From the NCBI GenBank assembly GCA_947626715.1, contig CANQTG010000001.1, positions 1-64,000 on the forward strand: 64,000 bases of DNA, given 5' to 3'. Origin of the DNA: an uncultured Lachnospiraceae bacterium. GTDB taxonomy: Bacteria; Bacillota; Clostridia; Lachnospirales; Lachnospiraceae. Of the stretch, positions 29,730 through 58,373 are shown piece after piece. Within the stretch, counting starts at the first letter, position 1, and each line of letters opens with the position of its first letter. The translations under genes were made by a program, and so were the position numbers. The notes under the pieces are model-generated. The model was not told where the DNA came from, did no database searches, and was given only the letters and a program-made list of their open reading frames with translations.

Positions 29730-30803
29730 TTATCCGATATACGCTGCGATCTGTCCATCCACGCACGATACCGCGTCTCCCCCGGGACGGCATTCCAGAT
29801 ACCCCTCGATCGCCTTATCGAGCGCCGTCTCTATCGTCCATACCGGTCTCCAGCCAAACGACCGTTTCAGCCTAGAGCAGTCCAGCTTCAGATAATTCGC
29901 CTCATGGGGGCCCCCGTCGCCGCGGCTCACCCATCGAAGCGCCTCTCCCGTCCGGGCCTGCCAGATCTTACAGAACAGCTCCGCCAGTTCCCCTGCCGTC
30001 ACGCAGTCGCTTTCATCCGGCCCCACATTATAGCTGCCCGCCAGTGCTCTGTTTTCATACTGCCCTTTGGCGGCCATCAGATAGGCCATGACCGGCTCCA
30101 ATACATGCTGGAACGGCCTGACAGAATCAGGATTGCGGATTATGATATTCTTTCCGGCAAACGCCGCCGCGATACAATCCGGGACGATACGATCCGCCGC
30201 AAAGTCCCCGCCGCCTATCACGTTCCCCGCGCGCATTGTCGATACCGCGAGCTCTCTGCTGCCAAAAAAAGCGTTCCGATAACTGTCCGTCACCAGCTCC
30301 GAGCAGGATTTGGAATTGGAATACGGGTCATATCCGTTCAGCTCCTCGTTTTCCCGATAACCCCATTCCCATTCCCTGTTTTTGTATACCTTATCCGTCG
30401 TGACATTGATAACGGAACGCACCGACTCGCTCTGACGCACGCATTCCATGACATGTACCGTTCCCATCACGTTGACGTCATAGGTATACACGGGCTCCTG
30501 ATAGGATCTGCGCACGATCGGCTGCGCCGCCATATGGATCACGATCTCCGGCTTTCGCTCTGTAAAGACCGCCTGCAATTTCTTCAGGTCGCGGATATCT
30601 CCCGTTACACAGTCCATCCGCTTCTCGAGCGAAAGTATCGTAAACAGGCTGGGAACCGTCGGCGGCTGCTGCGCATAGCCCGTTACCTCAGCGCCCATGC
30701 GCAGCAGCGCGCTGCACATCCATGCGCCTTTAAAACCGGTATGGCCTGTCACCAGTACCCTTCTGCCCCGGTAAAAATCTGATAATTCCTGCATTCGTAT
30801 CAT
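29730..30803 (-). CDS. rfbG: CDP-glucose 4,6-dehydratase
   Basis: FYRGRRVLVTGHTGFKGAWMCSALLRMGAEVTGYA...AAQPIVRRSYQEPVYTYDVNVMGT...TTDKVYKN; start trimmed to MIRMQELSDF (ATGA overlap with upstream GT4). Confidence 0.92.
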   Translation of the reverse strand: MIRMQELSDFYRGRRVLVTGHTGFKGAWMCSALLRMGAEVTGYAQQPPTVPSLFTILSLEKRMDCVTGDIRDLKKLQAVFTERKPEIVIHMAAQPIVRRSYQEPVYTYDVNVMGTVHVMECVRQSESVRSVINVTTDKVYKNREWEWGYRENEELNGYDPYSNSKSCSELVTDSYRNAFFGSRELAVSTMRAGNVIGGGDFAADRIVPDCIAAAFAGKNIIIRNPDSVRPFQHVLEPVMAYLMAAKGQYENRALAGSYNVGPDESDCVTAGELAELFCKIWQARTGEALRWVSRGDGGPHEANYLKLDCSRLKRSFGWRPVWTIETALDKAIEGYLECRPGGDAVSCVDGQIAAYIG

Positions 30804-31966
30804 CGTATTCCCTTCCCCTCGTCCGCCCGTTTTTTCAGGATAGCTTCCATGACGGCCGTATACTGCCCCGCGATCCCTTTCCATTGGAACCGTTCTTCTA
30901 CCAGACGCAGGCTTGCCTCTCCCATGCGCCTGCGTTCTTCATCCTGCACGCACAGGGCGAGCAGCTTTTCCTGAAACTGCTCTACCGGCGCCGCATAGCC
31001 GTTATCCCCGATCAGCTCTTCGCTGCCCTCGCAGGGCGTCATAACAATGGGAAGGCCGCTCGCCATCGCCTCCAACACGACATTGGGCATCCCTTCCTTA
31101 CGGGAAGGCAGAATAAAGATATCCGCCGCCTGATAATAGGCGGGCAGCTCCTCCTTCTTCTTCTGCCCTACAAACGTCACGCAGCTTCCTAGCGCCATAT
31201 CCGCGGCGATCTTCTCTAATTCCCGCCGGTAAGGGCCGTCCCCGACTACGGTCAGATGAAGAGGCTTTTTCGCCTCCCTCTGCAGCTCCGGCAGCATAGG
31301 CAGAATATACTGTAACCCCTTGCGCTCGATCAGCCGGGACACAAACAGCAGCTCTATCCCCGCCGCGCCTCCCTTCGATCCCTTTTTATAAGAGGGATGG
31401 AAATGAGAGGTATCGACGCCGTTCGTAATGATCCGTATCTCTTTTTTATCATAAAAATCCAGCGCCAATTTCTTTAGCCCGCGGCTGTTCGCTATCAGCG
31501 CATCCGCCTGTTTCCATATAAACGCTTCAAACGGCCCCAGCGCTTTATAAAGGAGACGGAACCGTTCCTGAAATCCCGGAATATCCCCGCCTCCAAAGCG
31601 GATGAGATAGGGAAGGCCATACCGCAGTTTCAGATAACAGGCAACAGGGCCGGCCGGAATGGCAAAAAACGCCTGACAGATATCAAAACGCTCCCTCTTT
31701 TGCAAAGCCGACGCCCGTATCATCGCTTTCCACAAATAATCCAACATCTCGGGAAAATTGCAGTGCTCGATATGCTTTCTCCTTGCCTTTAAGCGGATGA
31801 TATGAACATTTTCATGTCTTTCCTCTTCTGGAAGACCGGAAAACCAGACGGTCACGACCGTGACCTCATGTCCCATAGCGGCATATTCCCGGGTCAGGTT
31901 CAGGCAGGCATTGGCTCCGCCGCCGCCCACCGGAGGATATTCATGTGTGATTATCAGTATCTTCAT
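30800..31966 (-). CDS. GT4 family glycosyltransferase
   Basis: MKILIITHEYPPVGGGGANACLNLTREYAAMGHEVTVVT...LPSRKEGMPNVVLEAMASGLPIV. Confidence 0.93.
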   Translation of the reverse strand: MKILIITHEYPPVGGGGANACLNLTREYAAMGHEVTVVTVWFSGLPEEERHENVHIIRLKARRKHIEHCNFPEMLDYLWKAMIRASALQKRERFDICQAFFAIPAGPVACYLKLRYGLPYLIRFGGGDIPGFQERFRLLYKALGPFEAFIWKQADALIANSRGLKKLALDFYDKKEIRIITNGVDTSHFHPSYKKGSKGGAAGIELLFVSRLIERKGLQYILPMLPELQREAKKPLHLTVVGDGPYRRELEKIAADMALGSCVTFVGQKKKEELPAYYQAADIFILPSRKEGMPNVVLEAMASGLPIVMTPCEGSEELIGDNGYAAPVEQFQEKLLALCVQDEERRRMGEASLRLVEERFQWKGIAGQYTAVMEAILKKRADEGKGIR

Positions 31967-37639: not shown

Positions 37640-38974
37640 TCAGCCTTCTATAGCGGTCTTGAGCGTATCTGTCATATAATCTATCATCTCATCTGTCATC
37701 CCCGGGTATACGCCAATCCAAAAAGCATCCCTCATAATCCTGTCCGTAACCCTCAATTCTCCAACCACGCGATAGCCCTCTCCGCTTATCCGCAGTTCAT
37801 CAAAGCATGGATGGTTGATTAGATTCCCTGCAAAAAGCATTCTGGTCTGTATTCCTTTCCTCTCCATCAGCCTGACTATATATTCTCGGTCTACTCCCCG
37901 GCAGAGAATCAAAAAGCCAAACCAACTTGGATTCGCATGTTCACAAGGCTGTGGTAAAATCATTTTATCCTGCAGATCTTCCAAATTTTTATATATTCTA
38001 TTAAAATTATATCGCCGCCGTTCTGTAAACGCCGGAAGCTTCTCTATTTGCGCACAGCCAATCGCCGCCTGCATATCAGTAGCTTTTAAATTATATCCGA
38101 AGTGCGAATACACATATTTATGGTCATAGCCTTTCGGCAATTCTCCATAATGCCCGTCGAAACGATGGCCGCACATATTATCATGCCCGGACGGGCAGAT
38201 ACAATCCCTTCCCCAATCCCGCATTGAACGAATAATTTTATGCAATAATGCATTATTGGTGTATACTGCCCCGCCCTCTCCCATCGTCATATGATGCGGC
38301 GGATAAAAACTAGAAGTCGCAATATCTCCTATCGTTCCTGTAAAATACCACTTGCCATCTATCTCATATTGCGAACCGAGCGCATCGCAATTATCTTCTA
38401 CAAGCCAAAGGCTATATTTTTCACAAAATTCTTTAACTTTTTTCAGATCAAAAGGATTCCCCAAAGTATGCGCAAGCATTACTGCTTTCGTTTTTTCTGA
38501 AAGCGCCTCCTCTAACATATTTACATCCACATTGTATTGAGGGATCGTCACATCCAAAAACACCGGGATTGCCCCGAATTGGATCATCGGCGCAACCGTC
38601 GTCGGGAATCCCGCCGCTACAGTAATAACCTCATCACCACGTTGTATACGTCTTTCTCCAAGTAAAGGAGAAGTAAGCGCCATAAAAGCAAGCAGATTCG
38701 CCGAAGAACCCGAATTTACAACAGAACAATACCGGATATTCAGATATTCCGCCAGTTTCTTTTCAAATGCATCCGTATATCGCCCGGATGTCAGCCAGAA
38801 CTCCAATGAGCTGTCCACCAGATTTCTCATTTCTCTGCTGTCATAAACCCTAGAAGCATAAGGAATTCTCTCGCCAGCTTTCCATGCTTTCTTCTCATGG
38901 TATTTCTCGCAATATACTTCTACCTGCCGTAATATCGTTTCCCTTGCCTCCTGCTCAGACATGTTATCAAACAT
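37640..38974 (-). CDS. rfbH: CDP-4-dehydro-6-deoxyglucose 3-dehydrase (PLP, DegT-like)
   Basis: MFDNMSEQEARETILRQVEVY...VNSGSSANLLAFMAL...GDEVITVAAGFPTTVAPMIQFGAIPVFLDVTIPQYNVD...FYPPHHMTMGEGG (H at the PLP site, as in RfbH/E1). Start trimmed from 39172. Confidence 0.93.
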   Translation of the reverse strand: MFDNMSEQEARETILRQVEVYCEKYHEKKAWKAGERIPYASRVYDSREMRNLVDSSLEFWLTSGRYTDAFEKKLAEYLNIRYCSVVNSGSSANLLAFMALTSPLLGERRIQRGDEVITVAAGFPTTVAPMIQFGAIPVFLDVTIPQYNVDVNMLEEALSEKTKAVMLAHTLGNPFDLKKVKEFCEKYSLWLVEDNCDALGSQYEIDGKWYFTGTIGDIATSSFYPPHHMTMGEGGAVYTNNALLHKIIRSMRDWGRDCICPSGHDNMCGHRFDGHYGELPKGYDHKYVYSHFGYNLKATDMQAAIGCAQIEKLPAFTERRRYNFNRIYKNLEDLQDKMILPQPCEHANPSWFGFLILCRGVDREYIVRLMERKGIQTRMLFAGNLINHPCFDELRISGEGYRVVGELRVTDRIMRDAFWIGVYPGMTDEMIDYMTDTLKTAIEG

Positions 38975-38990
38975 ACATCTTCTCCCAATA

Positions 38991-39767
38991 TTACCAAATC
39001 TTCCAAGGCGCATCCTCTGATTCCCAGAGCGATTCCAGATAATTCTTATCTCGCAGCGTATCCATCGGAGACCAAAAGCCCTCATGCCGATACGCCACCA
39101 TCTCACCCGCTTCTGCAACGGCTTCCAACGGGCCGGCTTCCAGCATCTCTCCGCCATCTCCCAAATAATCAAATATTTTACGATTCATAACCATAAAGCC
39201 CGCATTTACCCATGCTTGGTCAACCCGCGCCTTTTCTTTAAATCCTTTTACTTGATTTGTTTGGGGATCGATCTTCAACGCCCCAAATCTTCCCATTGGC
39301 TGCGTTGTTGTAATCGTTACTGTTTTTTTGTATTTATGATGGAACGCCAATAACTCTGAAATATCAACATCAGCCACACCGTCTCCATAAGTTAGGAAAA
39401 ATTCTTCGTCTTCGCCAATATAATCCCGAACCTTTAATATCCTGCCCGCCGTTAATGTATTTAATCCCGTATTGACCAGAGTTACCCGCCACGGCTCCGC
39501 AAAAACTTCATGAACTAAGATCTCTTTGTTTTTCAACAAAAATGTACTATCTGACTGATTAACATAATAGTGTATAAAATATTCTTTTATCATCTGGCCT
39601 TTATATCCACAGCAGATAATAAACTCATTATACCCGTAATATGAATACAATTTCATGATATGCCAGAGAATTGGTTTCCCTCCTATTTCTATCATAGGTT
39701 TAGGGCGCATATACGATTCTTCGCTAATGCGCGTACCCATACCCCCTGCTAAAATTACCAATTTCAT
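38991..39767 (-). CDS. rfbF: Glucose-1-phosphate cytidylyltransferase
   Basis: MKLVILAGGMGTRISEESYMRPKPMIEIGGKPILWHIMKLYSYYG...CCGYKG...FWSPMDTLRDKNYLESLW. Confidence 0.94.
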   Translation of the reverse strand: MKLVILAGGMGTRISEESYMRPKPMIEIGGKPILWHIMKLYSYYGYNEFIICCGYKGQMIKEYFIHYYVNQSDSTFLLKNKEILVHEVFAEPWRVTLVNTGLNTLTAGRILKVRDYIGEDEEFFLTYGDGVADVDISELLAFHHKYKKTVTITTTQPMGRFGALKIDPQTNQVKGFKEKARVDQAWVNAGFMVMNRKIFDYLGDGGEMLEAGPLEAVAEAGEMVAYRHEGFWSPMDTLRDKNYLESLWESEDAPWKIW

Positions 39768-39776
39768 ATATTTTTA

Positions 39777-40544
39777 TCATCCTCCAATCCATGGCGCCAT
39801 TCCGGCATTCCAAAGATTTTCAGCTTCACTCAGATCCCTTTTAGTCTCAACCGCCAGCCAATAGCCTGAGTGCTTATAAAACGCGAGCTGTTCCTTTTCT
39901 GAAAGTCTTACAAATAAATATTTTTCCAAATTATAATTCCCATCTAAAAAATGAAAAACTTTCGGTGAGAAAACAAAGCAGTCGCCATTCGCCCATGCAT
40001 TATCGCTTTCCTCACGGCCTGTGCTGCTATAGCTTAATTTTCCAGCCTTATCAAACGGAAGCAGCTCTTTTCTTCCCGAAGGCTTTACCATCGCAATCGT
40101 AGCAGTTTTCCCTTTTTGCTGATGATATTCTACCATTTGCAAGGCATTGATATCAGATAGACAGTCGCCATACGTAACAATAAAATCACCGTCAATATAT
40201 TTCTCTATCATGCTGATCCGCTGTCCGGCAGCCGAAAACAAACCCGTATCAACAACTGTAACCTTCCAGTCCTCTGTCCGTTTCTTATGTATCTCTACAA
40301 TATTACTCCGTAAGTCCACTGTAATATCGGATTCATAAATATAAAAATCTACAAAGTATTCTTTAATATAATCTACCTTGTATCCCCCGCATACAATAAA
40401 TTCTGTAAATCCGTATTGTGAAAAATGTTTCATGATATGCCATAAAAGAGGTTTCCCTCCAATATCCACCATAGGTTTGGGTATCCCTTCCCTATCATTA
40501 CTTATGGAGCTCTGCATACCGCCGGCTAAAATTACTACTTTCAT
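39777..40544 (-). CDS. RfbF-like nucleotidyltransferase paralogue with altered nucleotide-binding loop
   Basis: MKVVILAGGMQSSISNDREGIPKPMVDIGGKPLLWHIMKHFSQYG...YWLAVETKRDLSEAENLW; aligns end to end with the neighbouring RfbF. Confidence 0.8.
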   Translation of the reverse strand: MKVVILAGGMQSSISNDREGIPKPMVDIGGKPLLWHIMKHFSQYGFTEFIVCGGYKVDYIKEYFVDFYIYESDITVDLRSNIVEIHKKRTEDWKVTVVDTGLFSAAGQRISMIEKYIDGDFIVTYGDCLSDINALQMVEYHQQKGKTATIAMVKPSGRKELLPFDKAGKLSYSSTGREESDNAWANGDCFVFSPKVFHFLDGNYNLEKYLFVRLSEKEQLAFYKHSGYWLAVETKRDLSEAENLWNAGMAPWIGG

Positions 40545-40573: not shown

Positions 40574-41455
40574 TTAATAAATTAATGAATATTCATCAAT
40601 ATCAGCCTGATTTTTCTGATACCATAAGTATAACTTCCTGACAGCTTCCTTCATATCCGTATAAACCATATCCGGCAGTTCATTAAGGAGTCTGCCATTA
40701 TTGGCAGTATATTCATTCCCCAAGCCCTCCTGACAGACTATGATTTTTTGCGGTGTCTCTGATACTTCATTAACTATTTCCGCAAGATTATACAAATCTA
40801 TCGGTTCCCCACATACCGCATTATATGTATGGAACATCGGTTGATCTAACTTCATAAACTTTTCTAACATACAGCAGAAATCATCTATCCACAAATAATC
40901 AAAATAACAATTTCTTCTCATGGATAATGGAATGCCTTTTAACGATTTACAGCACAAATTGGAAATATATCTGACCTTCCAATTTTCGTATTTCCCAAAA
41001 ACTCCAAATAAACGCAGATTATAAATATTCTCACTACTCTCTATCATCTGATTTACAGTATATTTCATCAATCCATATTGATCCACGGGAATCGAGTGAT
41101 CCGATAAATCTATTTCACGTACCATCTGGATAGGATATCTTTTATCATACTCAGCGCCTGAACCAGTATATATCATCTTCCCATATAATGCAGAGTACTT
41201 GGCCAAATTATGAAATATACGTAAATTGCATTGCAGGATTTTAGTTTCATCTATGGACTTGTTTATTCCATTCCCATAAACGGCAAAATGTAAAACAACA
41301 TCATACCCCTTTAATAAGTACTGCCTGACTGCATTTTCATCCATACAATCCAGTTCCTTACTGGTTGGGGCGTGTATGGTATATCCTCTTTGCAGCAGAT
41401 ATTCTTTCACATTTCTTCCTAAGAAGCCAGAACCGCCTGTTAATAATATTTTCAT
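40574..41455 (-). CDS. SDR-family sugar reductase/epimerase (candidate CDP-hexose reductase)
   Basis: MKILLTGGSGFLGRNVKEYLLQRG; YTGSGAEYDKRYP; DQYGLMKYTVNQMI (YxxxK). Confidence 0.8.
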   Translation of the reverse strand: MKILLTGGSGFLGRNVKEYLLQRGYTIHAPTSKELDCMDENAVRQYLLKGYDVVLHFAVYGNGINKSIDETKILQCNLRIFHNLAKYSALYGKMIYTGSGAEYDKRYPIQMVREIDLSDHSIPVDQYGLMKYTVNQMIESSENIYNLRLFGVFGKYENWKVRYISNLCCKSLKGIPLSMRRNCYFDYLWIDDFCCMLEKFMKLDQPMFHTYNAVCGEPIDLYNLAEIVNEVSETPQKIIVCQEGLGNEYTANNGRLLNELPDMVYTDMKEAVRKLYLWYQKNQADIDEYSLIY

Positions 41456-41499: not shown

Positions 41500-42747
41500 T
41501 TATATTGCATACAACACCGTTTCAGACAAATAATTGCTATAGTGTCTAATATATAATTTATATTCTGGCACTAATGTTTTTATATAATATGGTATCTCCC
41601 ATAAATCTTCTTTTTTATGATAAATACAAATAGCAAGTTTAGGCTTGTCTTTCAACAAAATATGTTTTGCTCCTTTTAATGCTCCTAGTTCAGAGCCCTC
41701 AATATCCATTTTAATGAATGTCACTTTTTCCTTAATATATGAGTCAAGTGCGATTACCTTTACTTTTTCTGAAGCTATATCGAATTGCTTTGAAGGATCT
41801 CCAACCGCTCCTAATATTCCTAACTCCGAAAAGTGAGAGGAAGAATTTCCCAAAGGAGAAAATTCCAAGTATTCGTTATCACTCCACAAGCCATACGGCA
41901 ATAATTCAATCTTATCTACTGCCAGATTACTTATTTTTTCTTTACATTTTTCAACATTTGCCTTATCAGGTTCAAAAGCATAGATCTTTTTATATTCTAG
42001 GCCCAACTCAGCCATTTTCTTAATAAATAACTCTCCTGTAGAAAAATCAAAGCAGCCTCCGTCAACAAATACCTCATCTTCTCCAAAATCCATTATTTTA
42101 TCAAAATACTGTTTCTCAAACGACTCTTTAAGAAAATAATAATCGTAATATTTATATATATCCTCCTCATGTATGCCTTTTTCTACTAACAAGCTAAATA
42201 TCTCTTCACAGACACCTTTATGCATAGGGCTAATAATAATAACATGGTTATTCATAAGCTTCTGCTCTAATAGCTCATCCAATGAAATGACAGATATTCC
42301 ATCTATTTTTGTATGCAGTTTCTCCGCACTACTGTCGCAAAATCGGCTGACTCTTACTCTCCCCCCCTCTTTCGGAAGGGACTGATCATTTAATCCAAGT
42401 CCAAACACGCAGCAGAATTCTCTACACAGTCCCCTTTGCTTGATCAATTTGACCATCTCTACATAATTCGGATGAAGGAGAGGTTCTCCATAACCATATA
42501 AATTGATAACTTTGATCCGCTCTGGAAATTCTTCCAAATCATCCAAGATCTTAAGGAATAATTCCATAGACATTTTTTCATGTCTTTCCTTTATCATAAA
42601 ATCGCTATTATTGCATGGACAAAATTTACAGGCAAAATTACACGCTCCACACGGATCTAAAAACAAGACAAAGGGGGCTTCTAAAGGTACCGCTTCTTCC
42701 AGCTTGGTCCTTGCATTACTATATTCTAATCGATCTCTATTGAGCAT
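41500..42747 (-). CDS. Chimera: truncated radical-SAM N-terminus + FkbM-type methyltransferase
   Basis: CGACNFACKFCPC (CxxxCxxC), YGYGEPLLHPNYVEMVKLIKQRG, then FGLGLND...FCDSSAEKLHTKIDGISVISLDELL, DEVFVDGGCFDFSTGELF, IKMDIEGSELGALKGAKHILL (FkbM). Confidence 0.8.
   Translation of the reverse strand: MLNRDRLEYSNARTKLEEAVPLEAPFVLFLDPCGACNFACKFCPCNNSDFMIKERHEKMSMELFLKILDDLEEFPERIKVINLYGYGEPLLHPNYVEMVKLIKQRGLCREFCCVFGLGLNDQSLPKEGGRVRVSRFCDSSAEKLHTKIDGISVISLDELLEQKLMNNHVIIISPMHKGVCEEIFSLLVEKGIHEEDIYKYYDYYFLKESFEKQYFDKIMDFGEDEVFVDGGCFDFSTGELFIKKMAELGLEYKKIYAFEPDKANVEKCKEKISNLAVDKIELLPYGLWSDNEYLEFSPLGNSSSHFSELGILGAVGDPSKQFDIASEKVKVIALDSYIKEKVTFIKMDIEGSELGALKGAKHILLKDKPKLAICIYHKKEDLWEIPYYIKTLVPEYKLYIRHYSNYLSETVLYAI
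42361..42367 (-). repeat. G7 homopolymer near the domain junction of the radical-SAM/FkbM chimera
   Basis: tactctCCCCCCCtctttc; codons AAA GAG GGG GGG AGA. Confidence 0.93.
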
Positions 42748-42785: not shown

Positions 42786-44558
42786 TCAGTTTTCGTCATA
42801 CGGCCACATTCTCTCCAACGGTCCTGACATCATTCTGCCATTTTTTCCAACAATCGCTTTTACTCTTGGCGATACCGTTTCTTCCGGCGAAACCATCAAC
42901 TCACACAATAACGGAGTGTTATCCTCCATGATTTCCGGTAATATCATATCCAATTCTTTGTTATTATGAATTCGATAAGTTTTAAATCCATATGCTTCCG
43001 CCACCTTAGCAATATCGGGCATAGTCAAGCCGCTTCCCGCTTCACTGGCTACATAATGACCCTCAAAATTATTTCTTTGCATAGCGCGTATACTCGCATA
43101 GCCATCATTATTCCATATAAACATTTTCACGGGAAGCTTCAATCGATGTAGCGTTTCCAACTCCTGAATATTTAACTGAAACGCCCCGTCTCCATTGATC
43201 AATATAGTTCTCCTCCTGCCGTTTGCTATACATGAACCAATCGAATAAGGCAGCCCGAACCCCATTGAGCCAAGTCCTGCGGCATTTTTCATTTTCTGCC
43301 CCTTTTTCAGCTTGAACGCCTGATAGGTAATCTCTCCCGCTCCACCCGAACTTTCAGGTACAATAACATCATCTTCCTTCAACAGCTCGCATAATTTACC
43401 AATAAAGTAATATGCGCTGACATAATCTTCTCTCCCTGCATGTTCTTTTGTAATAACCGGATATTTCCTTCGTACTTCCTTAGAATATACAAGCCATTGA
43501 CGCCACATATTTTTCTGTTTTATAATAGCAGAAATATTTTTATCGTCTTCTATACAGCTCAGTAAATCTGCTAAAAATTCTTTGGCATCGCATACTGCCG
43601 TCACCTTTTTATCAACATTCATTCTTCTGATTTCATTTTCATCAATATCTACAATAACCTTTTTAGCGCATTTCCCAAAATTTTTATCATTAAATGCCGT
43701 AACGCTGGTATCCAAACGACAGCCAATGGACAAGATAAGATCCGCTTCCTGTAAGATCAGGTTGGCGCCTCTGTCGCCCATAATGCCGGGATGACCCACA
43801 TATCGTGCATCCTCTTCGCCAAACATATCGATTGTTTTCCATGTAGTTTCTACTGGAATCGGCAATTTATCCAATAGACGATACAAGGTTTCCACCGCAT
43901 TTGCCAGCTTAATACCATTTCCCGCCAACAGCAATGGCTTTTGGGAGCGTTTCAGCAATTCTACTGTTTTGACAATAGCATCCGTTATATCATTTTTATT
44001 ATATTGCTCCGGTTTATAGCCGCACAAGCTCTGCTCATCTAACATAACAGCCTGTACATCTAAGGGAATATCCAACCACACAGGCCCAAACCTTCCTGTT
44101 GTCGCTTCATAATATGCTTTCTCTAAATGATATTTTATTTCCGTTGGTTCTAAGATCTGTACCGCATACTTTGTAATCGGTTTCACCATAGGTATTATCT
44201 GCACTTCTTGTGAGCCGATCTGTCTAACACCTTTATCGCCAACCAAATCCTCTCTCTTGGATTGTCCTGAAATAATAAACATTGGCGTAGAATCTATCCA
44301 GCCTGCCGTAACGCCCGTAATTGCGTTGGTCGCGCCGGGGCCTGATGTAACCAATACCACTCCCGGCGTATTTGTATGCTGCGCATATGCCTCTGCAGCG
44401 ATCGCAGCTCCCTGTTCATGTAAAAAACAGATATATTCAATATTAGACTTTCCAATAGAATCATCCAGATGCATCGCTCCCCCTCCCGGAAGCATAAACG
44501 CATGTTTGACCCCTTTATTCTCTAAAAATTGAAATACATAATCTGATAGCTTAATCAT
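42786..44558 (-). CDS. TPP-dependent enzyme, acetolactate-synthase-like (YerE-like candidate)
   Basis: HEQGAAIAAEAYAQ, TSGPGATNAITGVTAGWIDSTPMFIISGQ, GDGAFQLNIQELETLHRLKLPVKMFIWNNDGYASI (TPP motif). Confidence 0.88.
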   Translation of the reverse strand: MIKLSDYVFQFLENKGVKHAFMLPGGGAMHLDDSIGKSNIEYICFLHEQGAAIAAEAYAQHTNTPGVVLVTSGPGATNAITGVTAGWIDSTPMFIISGQSKREDLVGDKGVRQIGSQEVQIIPMVKPITKYAVQILEPTEIKYHLEKAYYEATTGRFGPVWLDIPLDVQAVMLDEQSLCGYKPEQYNKNDITDAIVKTVELLKRSQKPLLLAGNGIKLANAVETLYRLLDKLPIPVETTWKTIDMFGEEDARYVGHPGIMGDRGANLILQEADLILSIGCRLDTSVTAFNDKNFGKCAKKVIVDIDENEIRRMNVDKKVTAVCDAKEFLADLLSCIEDDKNISAIIKQKNMWRQWLVYSKEVRRKYPVITKEHAGREDYVSAYYFIGKLCELLKEDDVIVPESSGGAGEITYQAFKLKKGQKMKNAAGLGSMGFGLPYSIGSCIANGRRRTILINGDGAFQLNIQELETLHRLKLPVKMFIWNNDGYASIRAMQRNNFEGHYVASEAGSGLTMPDIAKVAEAYGFKTYRIHNNKELDMILPEIMEDNTPLLCELMVSPEETVSPRVKAIVGKNGRMMSGPLERMWPYDEN

Positions 44559-44567
44559 ACGTCCCTC

Positions 44568-45626
44568 TTATTTCTGTCCTCCAAACATTTTATATTCTAC
44601 ATATTCCGCCATTACATGCCCAATAAAAATATGCGCCTCTTGGATACGCGGTGTAATGAGAGAAGGGATTTTAATTATATAGTCTGCCGCACCATTCAGC
44701 TCCGGATTTTCAAATCCTCCCATCATCAGCACAGAAATCAAACTATTTTTCTCTGCATACCGTAATGCCGCCAGAACATTTTTACTATTCCCGCTCGTTG
44801 TGATCCCTATGACCATATCGCCGGCTTGAGCTTTTGCTTCTAGTTGTCTTGCAAATATCCGTTCAAAACTGTAATCATTTCCAATCGCCGTTAAGGTGGA
44901 AGTATTTACCGACAGCGCTTCCGCATTTAGCCCCGGCCGCTCTTTATAGAAACGGCTGATAAACTCCGCCGCAATATGTTGTGCGTCAGCAGCGCTTCCG
45001 CCATTTCCGCATAAGTAAATTCCGCCGTCATTTTCCAATATTGAAATAATCCTGTCCCCGATCTTCATAACCGTGTCCATAAGTTCCTGATCGGACGCCA
45101 GCTTTTTAAATATGTTGGTATGTTCCTCTAAACGCTGTAAAAAATAATTGTGCGCACACCCTTCATCATTATATTTTTCTAATATGGAAATGATTTCCCA
45201 GATACAACCCATTCCGCCATCGTTCTGCAAAATGATATCCGCCGCATTCTTGGCTTTATCTATCGCATTAGCCGGACATAAACCCAAACCCGCATAAGCA
45301 AGCGGTTCTATATCATATTTACCATCACCTATGTAACAAATATTCTCTCTGGCAACTCCTGTTCCCTGCTCGATTTGCTGCATAGTCTCTCTTTTCGTTT
45401 TATTCCCACGATAAAAATATTCCCACGGGAATCTCTTTTCAAAATAATCTACGATTTCTGTATCTTCGCCCGTAATAGCCGCCAATTTGTACCCTCTGCG
45501 ATGCAATTCAAAAATAGCGTCAATATCCTTCAGATTGATCTGCTTCTGTTCATTTCCATTAGAATCAATGATAACAGAGCCGTCTGTAATAACCCCATCA
45601 ATATCAAATACGATCAGTTCTATCAT
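44568..45626 (-). CDS. Fusion: KdsC-like HAD phosphatase + GmhA-like SIS sugar isomerase
   Basis: MIELIVFDIDGVITDGSVIIDSNGNEQKQINLKDIDAI (KdsC-like) and GGIYLCGNGGSAADAQHIAAEFISRFYKERPGLNAEALSVNTSTLTAIGNDYSFERIFARQ (GmhA). Confidence 0.9.
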   Translation of the reverse strand: MIELIVFDIDGVITDGSVIIDSNGNEQKQINLKDIDAIFELHRRGYKLAAITGEDTEIVDYFEKRFPWEYFYRGNKTKRETMQQIEQGTGVARENICYIGDGKYDIEPLAYAGLGLCPANAIDKAKNAADIILQNDGGMGCIWEIISILEKYNDEGCAHNYFLQRLEEHTNIFKKLASDQELMDTVMKIGDRIISILENDGGIYLCGNGGSAADAQHIAAEFISRFYKERPGLNAEALSVNTSTLTAIGNDYSFERIFARQLEAKAQAGDMVIGITTSGNSKNVLAALRYAEKNSLISVLMMGGFENPELNGAADYIIKIPSLITPRIQEAHIFIGHVMAEYVEYKMFGGQK

Positions 45627-45647
45627 TTTGATAAACCATGCCTTCCT

Positions 45648-46475
45648 CTAACCTCTCAGTTTTCTTTTAACTTCCTCTTCCTTTGCAGTGAGTACCTTCT
45701 CACCTGTTCCCATGATTTTTTCCGTATCTCTGATATTCTTTACGAGCGCGCATAGCTCATAGGGCTCTATTGAAGCTTTCTGATCTGAACCATACATTGT
45801 CTTGTCTAACGTAATATGTCTTTCTACGGAGGCAGCGCCCGCTGCCACAGCGCACATACTCACCAATATCCCTTCTTCATGTCCGCTATAGCCCACCCTG
45901 CATTGGTATCTGTCTCCAAGCGTTTTTATCAGCTTCAGGTTCGCATCCTCCATCGGCATTGGATAGGTGCTGTTGCAATGCAGCAATTCAAACGGGCAAT
46001 CCCGCTTTCTGAATATTTCCACCGCATGATCGATCTCGCTTAACGTACTCATTCCCGTAGCAATAAAAGTATATTTTCCTTCTTTTGCAATCTCCGTAAG
46101 CAAATCATCTCTCGTCAGCATAGCAGACGCCACTTTATTATATTTACAGTTATATTGTTGTATAAAAAGCTGTGAGTCAATATCCCATGCCGACGCATAC
46201 CATTCTATCCCTTTTTCATGGCAGTATCTGTCAATCTCATCATATTCTTCCTTGCCAAACTCCAAGCCTTCCTTTTGGGCGCGCTGCGTTTCTCCCCAAG
46301 GACTTTGCCGAGGGCTGTCCAGATATTCTTTTGTATATACCTTGTCCACAGTCCGTTTTTGAAACTTCACCGCATCACATCCGGCCACAACAGCCGCGTC
46401 AATCAAACGCTTTGCTAAACGAATATCCCCATTATGATTGATTCCTATTTCTGCCGCAATAAATGTACGCATAAT
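45648..46475 (-). CDS. Short NeuB-family synthase (no visible C-terminal SAF domain)
   Basis: MRTFIAAEIGINHNGDIRLAKRLIDAAVVAGCDAVKFQKR...FIATGMSTLSEIDHAVEIF...LLHCNSTYP...GYSGHEEG...VERHITLDKTMYGSDQKASIEP. Trimmed to MRTF. Confidence 0.88.
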   Translation of the reverse strand: MMRTFIAAEIGINHNGDIRLAKRLIDAAVVAGCDAVKFQKRTVDKVYTKEYLDSPRQSPWGETQRAQKEGLEFGKEEYDEIDRYCHEKGIEWYASAWDIDSQLFIQQYNCKYNKVASAMLTRDDLLTEIAKEGKYTFIATGMSTLSEIDHAVEIFRKRDCPFELLHCNSTYPMPMEDANLKLIKTLGDRYQCRVGYSGHEEGILVSMCAVAAGAASVERHITLDKTMYGSDQKASIEPYELCALVKNIRDTEKIMGTGEKVLTAKEEEVKRKLRG

Positions 46476-57620: not shown

Positions 57621-58373
57621 CTATCCGTCTTTTCTCACTTCATCTATACCTCTCAATTTATTATATCCACCCCATTTTCTCTTATCTAGCATGATTATCT
57701 TTTTTTCAAATGGCAATTTACTATCTTCTGGAAATAAATATGCCGGCGAAATAATCTTGTATTTTATTTCACTTTCATGTTCATAAATATACTTATTTAA
57801 ATGACTTTCATCATGCCACTTTGCAATTATATTACGCTCCAAATCTATTATGATATTTTTAGATAACTCTTCCATTAATGCAATATACTCATTTGCTTTT
57901 CCTCCATTAAACCCACCCGCAAAATAAGCTTCGCCCTCACCCATAGGTATATACGCTTTAGATAATGGGTTTCTATCATATGTAAAATCATACGCTGTTC
58001 TATCAAAAGGGCCCGGGGACAATGTCACGAAAAGACTTTCTTTTCCGGTTGGCAATATTTCTTTCTCTTCAATTTTTTCTTGAACAATTAAATTTGCATT
58101 CATAAATATTATATAATCATACATTTTTAATTCATCTTTTATCCTTAAAAAATATTCATAGCGATTTAACGTCGGAAAAGGCCAAGGCTCTTTTTTTTGA
58201 TAGCAGGGATGTACTTTTTCAATTATATTATTCATTATCACAGCATTATCTGTAAAAACATAATAATGTTTTTCTGAATTTATAAGAAAATTTTTTTCCG
58301 TATTTTTATAAAAAAGCGGCCAAAAAATTGCATATTCTCCAGTACATACATATAAGATCGCCACTTTACTCAT
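57621..58373 (-). CDS. GT6 family glycosyltransferase (ABO / alpha-1,3-Gal(NAc)T-like)
   Basis: YDYIIFMNANLIVQ (NxN in place of DxD, as in bacterial GT6), YFAGGFNGGKANEYIALMEELSKNI, IIAKWHDESHLNKYIYEHE, ISPAYLFPE. Confidence 0.9.
   Translation of the reverse strand: MSKVAILYVCTGEYAIFWPLFYKNTEKNFLINSEKHYYVFTDNAVIMNNIIEKVHPCYQKKEPWPFPTLNRYEYFLRIKDELKMYDYIIFMNANLIVQEKIEEKEILPTGKESLFVTLSPGPFDRTAYDFTYDRNPLSKAYIPMGEGEAYFAGGFNGGKANEYIALMEELSKNIIIDLERNIIAKWHDESHLNKYIYEHESEIKYKIISPAYLFPEDSKLPFEKKIIMLDKRKWGGYNKLRGIDEVRKDG

Follow-up and report, generated by a model that had tools for sequence, protein, structure and literature searches.

YerE-like enzymes remove CO2 from an alpha-keto acid and transfer the remaining acyl unit to a ketone (PMC12247030; PMC12188165). 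The donor of YerE is pyruvate, from which an acetaldehyde unit is added to CDP-3,6-dideoxy-4-ketoglucose; ErwE acts on the same CDP-sugar but does not use pyruvate and favours 4-hydroxy-2-oxo acids (PMC12247030). JanthE accepts 4-hydroxy-2-oxovalerate and couples to ketones (PMC12188165). Branching pathways of this kind and the hydroxy-keto-acid donors of ErwE are known; the physiological substrates of JanthE and the structures made by most predicted YerE-like clusters were described as unknown in 2025 (PMC12188165; PMC12247030). In the Kdo pathway (KdsD, KdsA, KdsC and KdsB), a phosphosugar isomerase, a PEP condensation and a phosphatase follow one another. In the KDN pathway of Bacteroides (BT1713, BT1714 and BT1715), a NeuB-family synthase acts on a sugar phosphate, followed by a KdsC-like KDN-9-P phosphatase.

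We analysed a stretch of 64,000 nucleotides (the window) from an uncultured Lachnospiraceae bacterium. On its minus strand, positions 46472 to 37640 read as a single run of polysaccharide genes with small intergenic gaps (9-44 bases between neighbours in the first seven), in the order short NeuB, KdsC-SIS fusion, ThDP enzyme, rSAM-stub/FkbM methyltransferase, extended SDR, RfbF2, RfbF1 and RfbH. RfbF1, RfbG and RfbH, the genes of the CDP-4-keto-3,6-dideoxyglucose pathway, all lie inside the window. The features are as follows (evidence in brackets).

45648..46472, minus: short NeuB-family PEP-condensing synthase, 274 aa, barrel only, without SAF domain (PF03102, AF2 model, orthologues)
44568..45626, minus: KdsC-SIS fusion, 352 aa, HAD phosphatase and GmhA-type phosphosugar isomerase (profile matches, orthologues)
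45168..45626, minus: HAD domain of the fusion, residues 1-153, KdsC / KDN-9-P phosphatase-like (DxD and GDGKYD motifs intact)
44574..45146, minus: SIS (GmhA-like) domain of the fusion, residues 161-351 (H217, E221, Q329 and H337 invariant)
42786..44558, minus: putative YerE-like ThDP-dependent C-C coupling enzyme, 590 aa, GDG motif (JanthE is the best sequence and fold match)
41500..42747, minus: FkbM-type methyltransferase with truncated radical-SAM N-terminus (full-length rSAM relatives in L040, L046 and L071)
40574..41455, minus: extended SDR, RmlD/epimerase-like (homologues near the ThDP enzyme elsewhere)
39777..40544, minus: RfbF2, degenerate glucose-1-P cytidylyltransferase paralogue without GGxGTR (motif and score)
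38991..39767, minus: RfbF1, glucose-1-phosphate cytidylyltransferase (380.5 bits, NCBIfam cut-off 300.25; GGMGTR intact)
37640..38974, minus: RfbH, CDP-4-keto-6-deoxyglucose 3-dehydratase, start at 38974 or 38962 (711.3 bits, cut-off 423)
29730..30884, minus: RfbG, CDP-glucose 4,6-dehydratase (TIGR02622, 419.9, cut-off 278.45)

Like the YerE-like systems (YerE, ErwE, JanthE and MMAR_2332; yersiniose, erwiniose and caryophyllose pathways), the locus combines a ThDP decarboxylase-superfamily enzyme with RfbF/RfbG/RfbH. ErwE takes hydroxy-functionalised 4-hydroxy-2-oxo acids as donors (PMC12247030), as the enzyme of the locus may do; in contrast to these systems, the putative donor would come from a NeuB-type PEP synthase, an isomerase and a phosphatase, and not be pyruvate or an aldolase product. 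The order of isomerase, PEP condensation and phosphatase is that of the Kdo pathway, but here the isomerase is GmhA-type and fused to the phosphatase, the synthase belongs to the NeuB family instead of being KdsA, and KdsB is absent. A NeuB-family synthase and a KdsC-like phosphatase are shared with the Bacteroides KDN pathway, from which the locus differs in having no CMP-KDN synthetase, a fused SIS domain and a synthase without SAF. In the searchable literature we found no description of the KdsC-SIS/NeuB/thiamine combination (an earlier mention is possible), nor of a dedicated PEP-synthase donor arm in which a nonulosonic-type synthase is paired with a YerE-like enzyme instead of NeuA.

Enzymes of the locus

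The open reading frame of the short NeuB (46490-45648, minus) extends upstream of the conserved start; ATG 46472, which gives 274 aa as in the orthologues, is most likely the true start. A first-pass annotation had read this protein as a NeuB that ends after the barrel. Consistent with this, PF03102 matched with 247.6 bits over profile positions 1-241, no SAF domain was found by profile search, and the AlphaFold model (pLDDT 85, pTM 0.85) was a bare barrel. The top fold match was 6ncs, a Leptospira NeuB-like protein of 290 aa, followed by PseI, NeuB and then DAHP and Kdo8P synthases. E9, K37, H199, E218, H220 and the HCNSTYPMP loop, which align with PEP/metal/catalytic positions of NeuB, were kept in all 13 orthologues aligned, so that the catalytic residues, whose loss would have spoken against the route proposed in the first-pass annotation, are intact. 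The short NeuB shares the PF03102 barrel and the conserved PEP/metal residues with NeuB, PseI and LegI but lacks their SAF domain and scores below the equivalog cut-offs (257.8 for TIGR03569, cut-off 399.65). The SAF domain of NeuB supplies Arg314, which contacts the N-acyl substrate.

In the fusion, residues ~2-153 matched KdsC (TIGR01670, 100.8 bits, just below the subfamily cut-off of 106.95) and, nearly as well, BT-type KDN-9-P phosphatase (89.5 bits). The best solved-structure matches of this HAD domain were 3e81/4hgo, and D8, D10, K78, D101 and D105 were invariant in 13 orthologues. Residues ~161-351 matched GmhA (169.7 bits) and PF13580 SIS_2. The SIS domain has the Zn/catalytic and phosphate-binding residues of the GmhA sedoheptulose-7-phosphate isomerase: N208, E221, T276-S281, Q329 and H337 correspond to GmhA Asn53, Glu66, Ser/Thr loop, Gln173 and His, and H217, E221, Q329 and H337 are invariant in the family. 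It differs from GmhA in forming the C-terminal half of a fusion, in scoring below the TIGR00441 equivalog cut-off (159.8, cut-off 209.45) and in one systematic change noted, at residue 241: all members of the family have Asn at a position that is Asp in GmhA, a possible sign that the ketose is not sedoheptulose-7-P. Since intact orthologues with 69-87% identity have the same two-domain architecture, the fusion is a real gene and not a frame artefact. We rejected a heptose pathway (GmhA followed by HddA/GmhB/HddC); none of these genes was seen in the window.

The ThDP enzyme has domains PF02776, PF00205 and PF02775 with the HEQ Glu and the GDG motif, where JanthE has CDG. By sequence it was closer to JanthE (8rph, 361.8 bits) than to the best acetolactate synthase (AHAS, 251), and the top six fold matches were all JanthE, the nearest relative among solved structures (the YerE and ErwE sequences lay outside the comparison). 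It scored far below the AHAS cut-offs, and an ordinary acetolactate synthase was rejected. Sequence, fold and gene association point to a putative YerE-like C-C coupling enzyme.

The FkbM methyltransferase with its rSAM stub is probably a decoration enzyme or a deletion fusion; in relatives the rSAM gene encodes ~340 aa, so the rSAM-FkbM protein looks like a deletion fusion. The extended SDR is a candidate YerF-type ketoreductase of the branched product, with homologues near the ThDP enzyme in 6/17 loci of the same type and in 3/3 legionaminate-type (Leg-type) loci (below). A glycosyltransferase of family 6 (ABO-type family, PF03414) is encoded at 57621-58373, within the same polysaccharide locus.

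A putative ulosonic acid donor and its use

We favour, as the probable reading, a donor-making module in which a free ulosonic acid is the keto-acid donor, and a CDP-4-ketosugar the acceptor, of the YerE-like enzyme. The SIS domain would turn a phosphorylated ketose into an aldose phosphate, the short NeuB would join this with PEP to give a 3-deoxy-2-ulosonic acid phosphate, and the fused KdsC domain would strip the phosphate. An aldose phosphate of C5, C6 or C7 would lead to an acid of C8, C9 or C10. In its open form, a 3-deoxy-2-ulosonic acid is a 4-hydroxy-2-oxo acid. The YerE-like enzyme would then decarboxylate the ulosonic acid and transfer the remaining acyl group to C4, the keto position, of CDP-4-keto-3,6-dideoxyglucose, which RfbF1, RfbG and RfbH would supply. 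Further, the extended SDR would probably reduce the side-chain ketone and methyltransferases would decorate the product; the outcome would be a higher-carbon sugar, 4-C-branched and CDP-activated, destined for a surface glycan. An ulosonic acid spent as a ThDP donor would need no CMP-ulosonate synthetase.

The first-pass annotation had proposed an unusual ulosonic route in which the RfbF paralogue might take the place of the activating enzyme. Its succession of isomerase, PEP condensation and phosphatase has good support from intact active sites and a strict gene association; its ending has not. RfbF2 has GGMQSS where RfbF1 has GGMGTR, and it scored 265.7 bits against TIGR02623, the NCBIfam glucose-1-P cytidylyltransferase family, below the cut-off of 300.25. 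Among the RfbF2 relatives whose N-terminus could be read, every one has GG.[QPR]S[ST] or a similar sequence instead of GGxGTR. Since this nucleotidyl-transfer motif is lost, RfbF2 is, on sequence grounds, unlikely to activate the ulosonic acid.

An alternative in which RfbF2 makes CMP-/CDP-ulosonic acid (or CDP-heptose) from the NeuB/KdsC-SIS product, and the ThDP enzyme acts elsewhere, would fit the position of RfbF2 in the same operon. It would also fit its distribution: RfbF2 was called near eight loci with the short NeuB, fusion and ThDP enzyme (the window, L038, L039, L040, L045, L053, L054 and L058), while among the other 61 ThDP loci the only comparable case was a protein with a like motif in L113, a NeuB-type locus. 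However, about half of the genomes with the three genes have no RfbF2 near them, and RfbF enzymes take sugar 1-phosphates, which a KdsC-type dephosphorylation does not leave. Together with the replaced motif and the low score, this makes such an activation very improbable. The RfbF2 family sits beside NeuB-type modules and was not called in aldolase-type loci; its travelling with the module is left without an account in the favoured reading.

Conservation of the three genes and of CDP-sugar genes

A search for the fusion with one genome per species gave 14 loci, nearly all from Lachnospiraceae or genera of the family by record name, and whole genomes of the window's family gave three more. The short NeuB, the fusion and the ThDP enzyme, whose co-occurrence the first-pass annotation had suggested as a check, were found together in 17/17 Lachnospiraceae loci with enough flank, window included (triad loci); many of these loci come from MAGs, and counts from related genomes are not independent. 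The fusion is rare (7/298 Lachnospiraceae genomes). The ThDP enzyme was present in 7/7 fusion genomes vs 59/291 others (p=2e-5) and RfbG in 7/7 vs 109/291 (p=1e-3).

RfbG was also present in 61/66 genomes with the ThDP enzyme vs 55/232 without it (p=6e-25). RfbG/RfbH lay within +-10 kb in only 5-6 of the 17 triad loci; in the others they lay at distances of tens of kb or on a different contig, and in G306 they were not found. The association with RfbG bears on an alternative in which the ThDP enzyme decarboxylates the ulosonic acid without coupling, yielding a 2-deoxy-aldose that is later activated and used. This would be the first half-reaction of the enzyme class, and the sequence data alone do not fix the acceptor. 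However, JanthE, the nearest relative, has ketones as coupling partners (PMC12188165), the genome-level association of the ThDP enzyme with RfbG, which takes part in making the ketone acceptor, is very strong, and no obvious kinase/nucleotidyltransferase for a free 2-deoxy-aldose was seen in the window. We give decarboxylation without coupling only a slight chance.

Decayed copies of the module were observed twice. Contig C3 of the same genome carries one at 461-1192 (L027, 482-1192, minus), in which an internal deletion joins the short-NeuB N-terminus to mid-SIS (72% identical there); a truncated TylF-like gene follows, and a TylF-like gene is in the same cluster in L039 and G246. In [Clostridium] aminophilum KH1P1 (L048:6538-7989), a stop interrupts the short NeuB and the fusion lacks its SIS half; RfbF and the ThDP enzyme are still intact. 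The module is therefore dispensable.

A plasmid locus of Azospirillum thermophilum was rejected as a second instance of the fusion, as its HAD protein has no SIS domain. This protein (L077:12859-13944) ends in a KdsC part that follows an unrecognised N-terminal one, possibly degenerate NeuA-like; its neighbours are a TylF methyltransferase and a short NeuB (57%). Leg genes lie beside them and no ThDP gene is near. Matches from Nonomuraea, Methylomagnum and a Hymenobacter plasmid were short NeuB relatives, in which no fusion was recognised.

Donor modules and NeuA partners in other loci

We compared the triad with 61 other ThDP loci (59 further loci fetched and two extra in G415), with neighbours annotated by BLAST to a reference set, so that labels of 'none' may hide divergent modules. 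The usual layout was RfbF-RfbG-RfbH, a ~540-aa HMGL/4-hydroxy-2-oxovalerate-aldolase-like protein, a ~220-aa HAD phosphatase, the ThDP enzyme and an SDR. The slot contained a DmpG/HMGL-type aldolase in 27 loci, a full legionaminate set in three and otherwise no recognised module. The aldolase was found in 27/61 of these loci vs 0/17 triad loci (p=3e-4), and the HAD phosphatase in 16/27 loci with the aldolase vs 2/34 without it (p=7e-6). The synthase and the phosphatase-isomerase of the triad therefore replace the aldolase and phosphatase found elsewhere.

Other NeuB-type genes were also found in this position. Three loci have a full NeuB with SAF and LegB/LegC/PtmE genes, two of them also NeuC, and none has NeuA nearby. 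In G415 and G559, legionaminate-type sets with a full NeuB and a PtmE-like nucleotidyltransferase adjoin the ThDP enzyme, again with no NeuA close to it. In G367 and G500, a NeuB-SAF-cupin (lyxose-isomerase-like) fusion touches the ThDP gene. Such fusions with D-lyxose-isomerase similarity were seen at L113:7248-8777, L121:7245-8762 and L040:2144-3634; two touch a ThDP gene and the L040 copy adjoins NeuA. In a quick tree of 79 ThDP proteins, in which some clustering of relatives is expected anyway, the 17 triad rows needed 2 label changes (shuffled mean 15.7, 0/500 as low). The two NeuB-cupin loci fall with them into one supported clade, and the Leg-type rows form one clade.

The absence of a CMP-transferase (NeuA/KdsB) from the window, as the first-pass annotation had noted, was confirmed by a PF02348 search of the whole genome: none was found on the window's contig (C1), and the three matches lie on contigs C7 (two) and C59 (one). 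The annotation had added that a NeuA and a full-length NeuB elsewhere might explain the pathway. Both do exist, as C7 has two full-length NeuBs, each with its own NeuA, but they belong to separate, self-contained Pse-type and Leg-type clusters. On all other points checked, too, the annotation's anatomy of the locus was right, including the KdsC-type HAD and GmhA-type SIS domains in one polypeptide. C59 (L031:1839-5106) encodes an HMGL-type aldolase of 540 aa, a CTP_transf_3 protein of 221 aa and, as a protein of its own, a KdsC of 168 aa, possibly an aldolase-based CMP-ulosonic acid unit; a similar set adjoins the ThDP enzyme in L151.

Among 51 NeuB genes in 20 genomes, NeuA was within 5 kb of 21 and the ThDP enzyme within 5 kb of 24, and no NeuB had both (p=5e-9; p=3e-4 without the short NeuBs). 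NeuA was beside 0/17 short NeuBs. G415 (three contigs, 96% complete) has three NeuBs, each adjoining a ThDP enzyme, and no CTP_transf_3 protein; the module was also present without CTP_transf_3 in G309 (possibly incomplete) and G311 (NeuB broken). Because NeuB adjoins NeuA or the ThDP enzyme, never both, the absent CMP-transferase is better explained by use of the acid by the ThDP enzyme.

The same data weigh on an alternative with two neighbouring but separate pathways, in which the ThDP enzyme would use pyruvate to make a yersiniose-like C2-branched CDP-sugar, and the short NeuB and KdsC-SIS would make a free Kdo- or KDN-like acid, converted to a CMP-sugar for the same polysaccharide by an unlinked NeuA-type enzyme (C7 or C59). 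YerE itself takes pyruvate (PMC12247030), three CTP_transf_3 proteins are available in the same genome, and about half of the other YerE-like loci have no recognised dedicated donor module and may use pyruvate. The exclusion of NeuA and ThDP enzyme, however, speaks against separate pathways. Further, each C7 NeuA already has its own NeuB partner, the module occurs in genomes without CTP_transf_3, and the ThDP phylogeny follows the donor module. We regard separate pathways as unlikely and retain the ulosonic acid as the probable donor of the ThDP enzyme.

More broadly, and tentatively, with the balance slightly against it, Lachnospiraceae ulosonic acids, including sialic-acid-like ones of legionaminic type from complete Leg pathways, could serve not as CMP-sugars but as unactivated alpha-keto-acid donors. 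YerE-like enzymes would decarboxylate them and graft the carbon chain onto CDP-4-ketohexoses, giving branched sugars of C13 and more. The aldolase, the short NeuB/KdsC-SIS pair, the NeuB-lyxose-isomerase fusion and the full Leg set would then be interchangeable donor modules of one enzyme family. If this is true, the products of nonulosonic-type synthases have a second fate besides CMP activation. NeuB genes that stand without NeuA would then be accounted for, and a class of very large branched sugars would be expected on the cell surfaces of gut Lachnospiraceae. The donor genes adjoining each ThDP enzyme make the question of the physiological substrate directly testable, and they could provide long-chain donors for biocatalysis.

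In five ThDP loci (L131, L148, L150, L161 and L167, from G447, G337, G413, G444 and G511, respectively), the stretch from RfbH to the ThDP gene encodes a membrane protein (~400 aa, flippase-like) flanked by a repeated pair of ~440-aa adenylate-forming-ligase-like proteins. The ThDP enzymes of these loci form their own clade.
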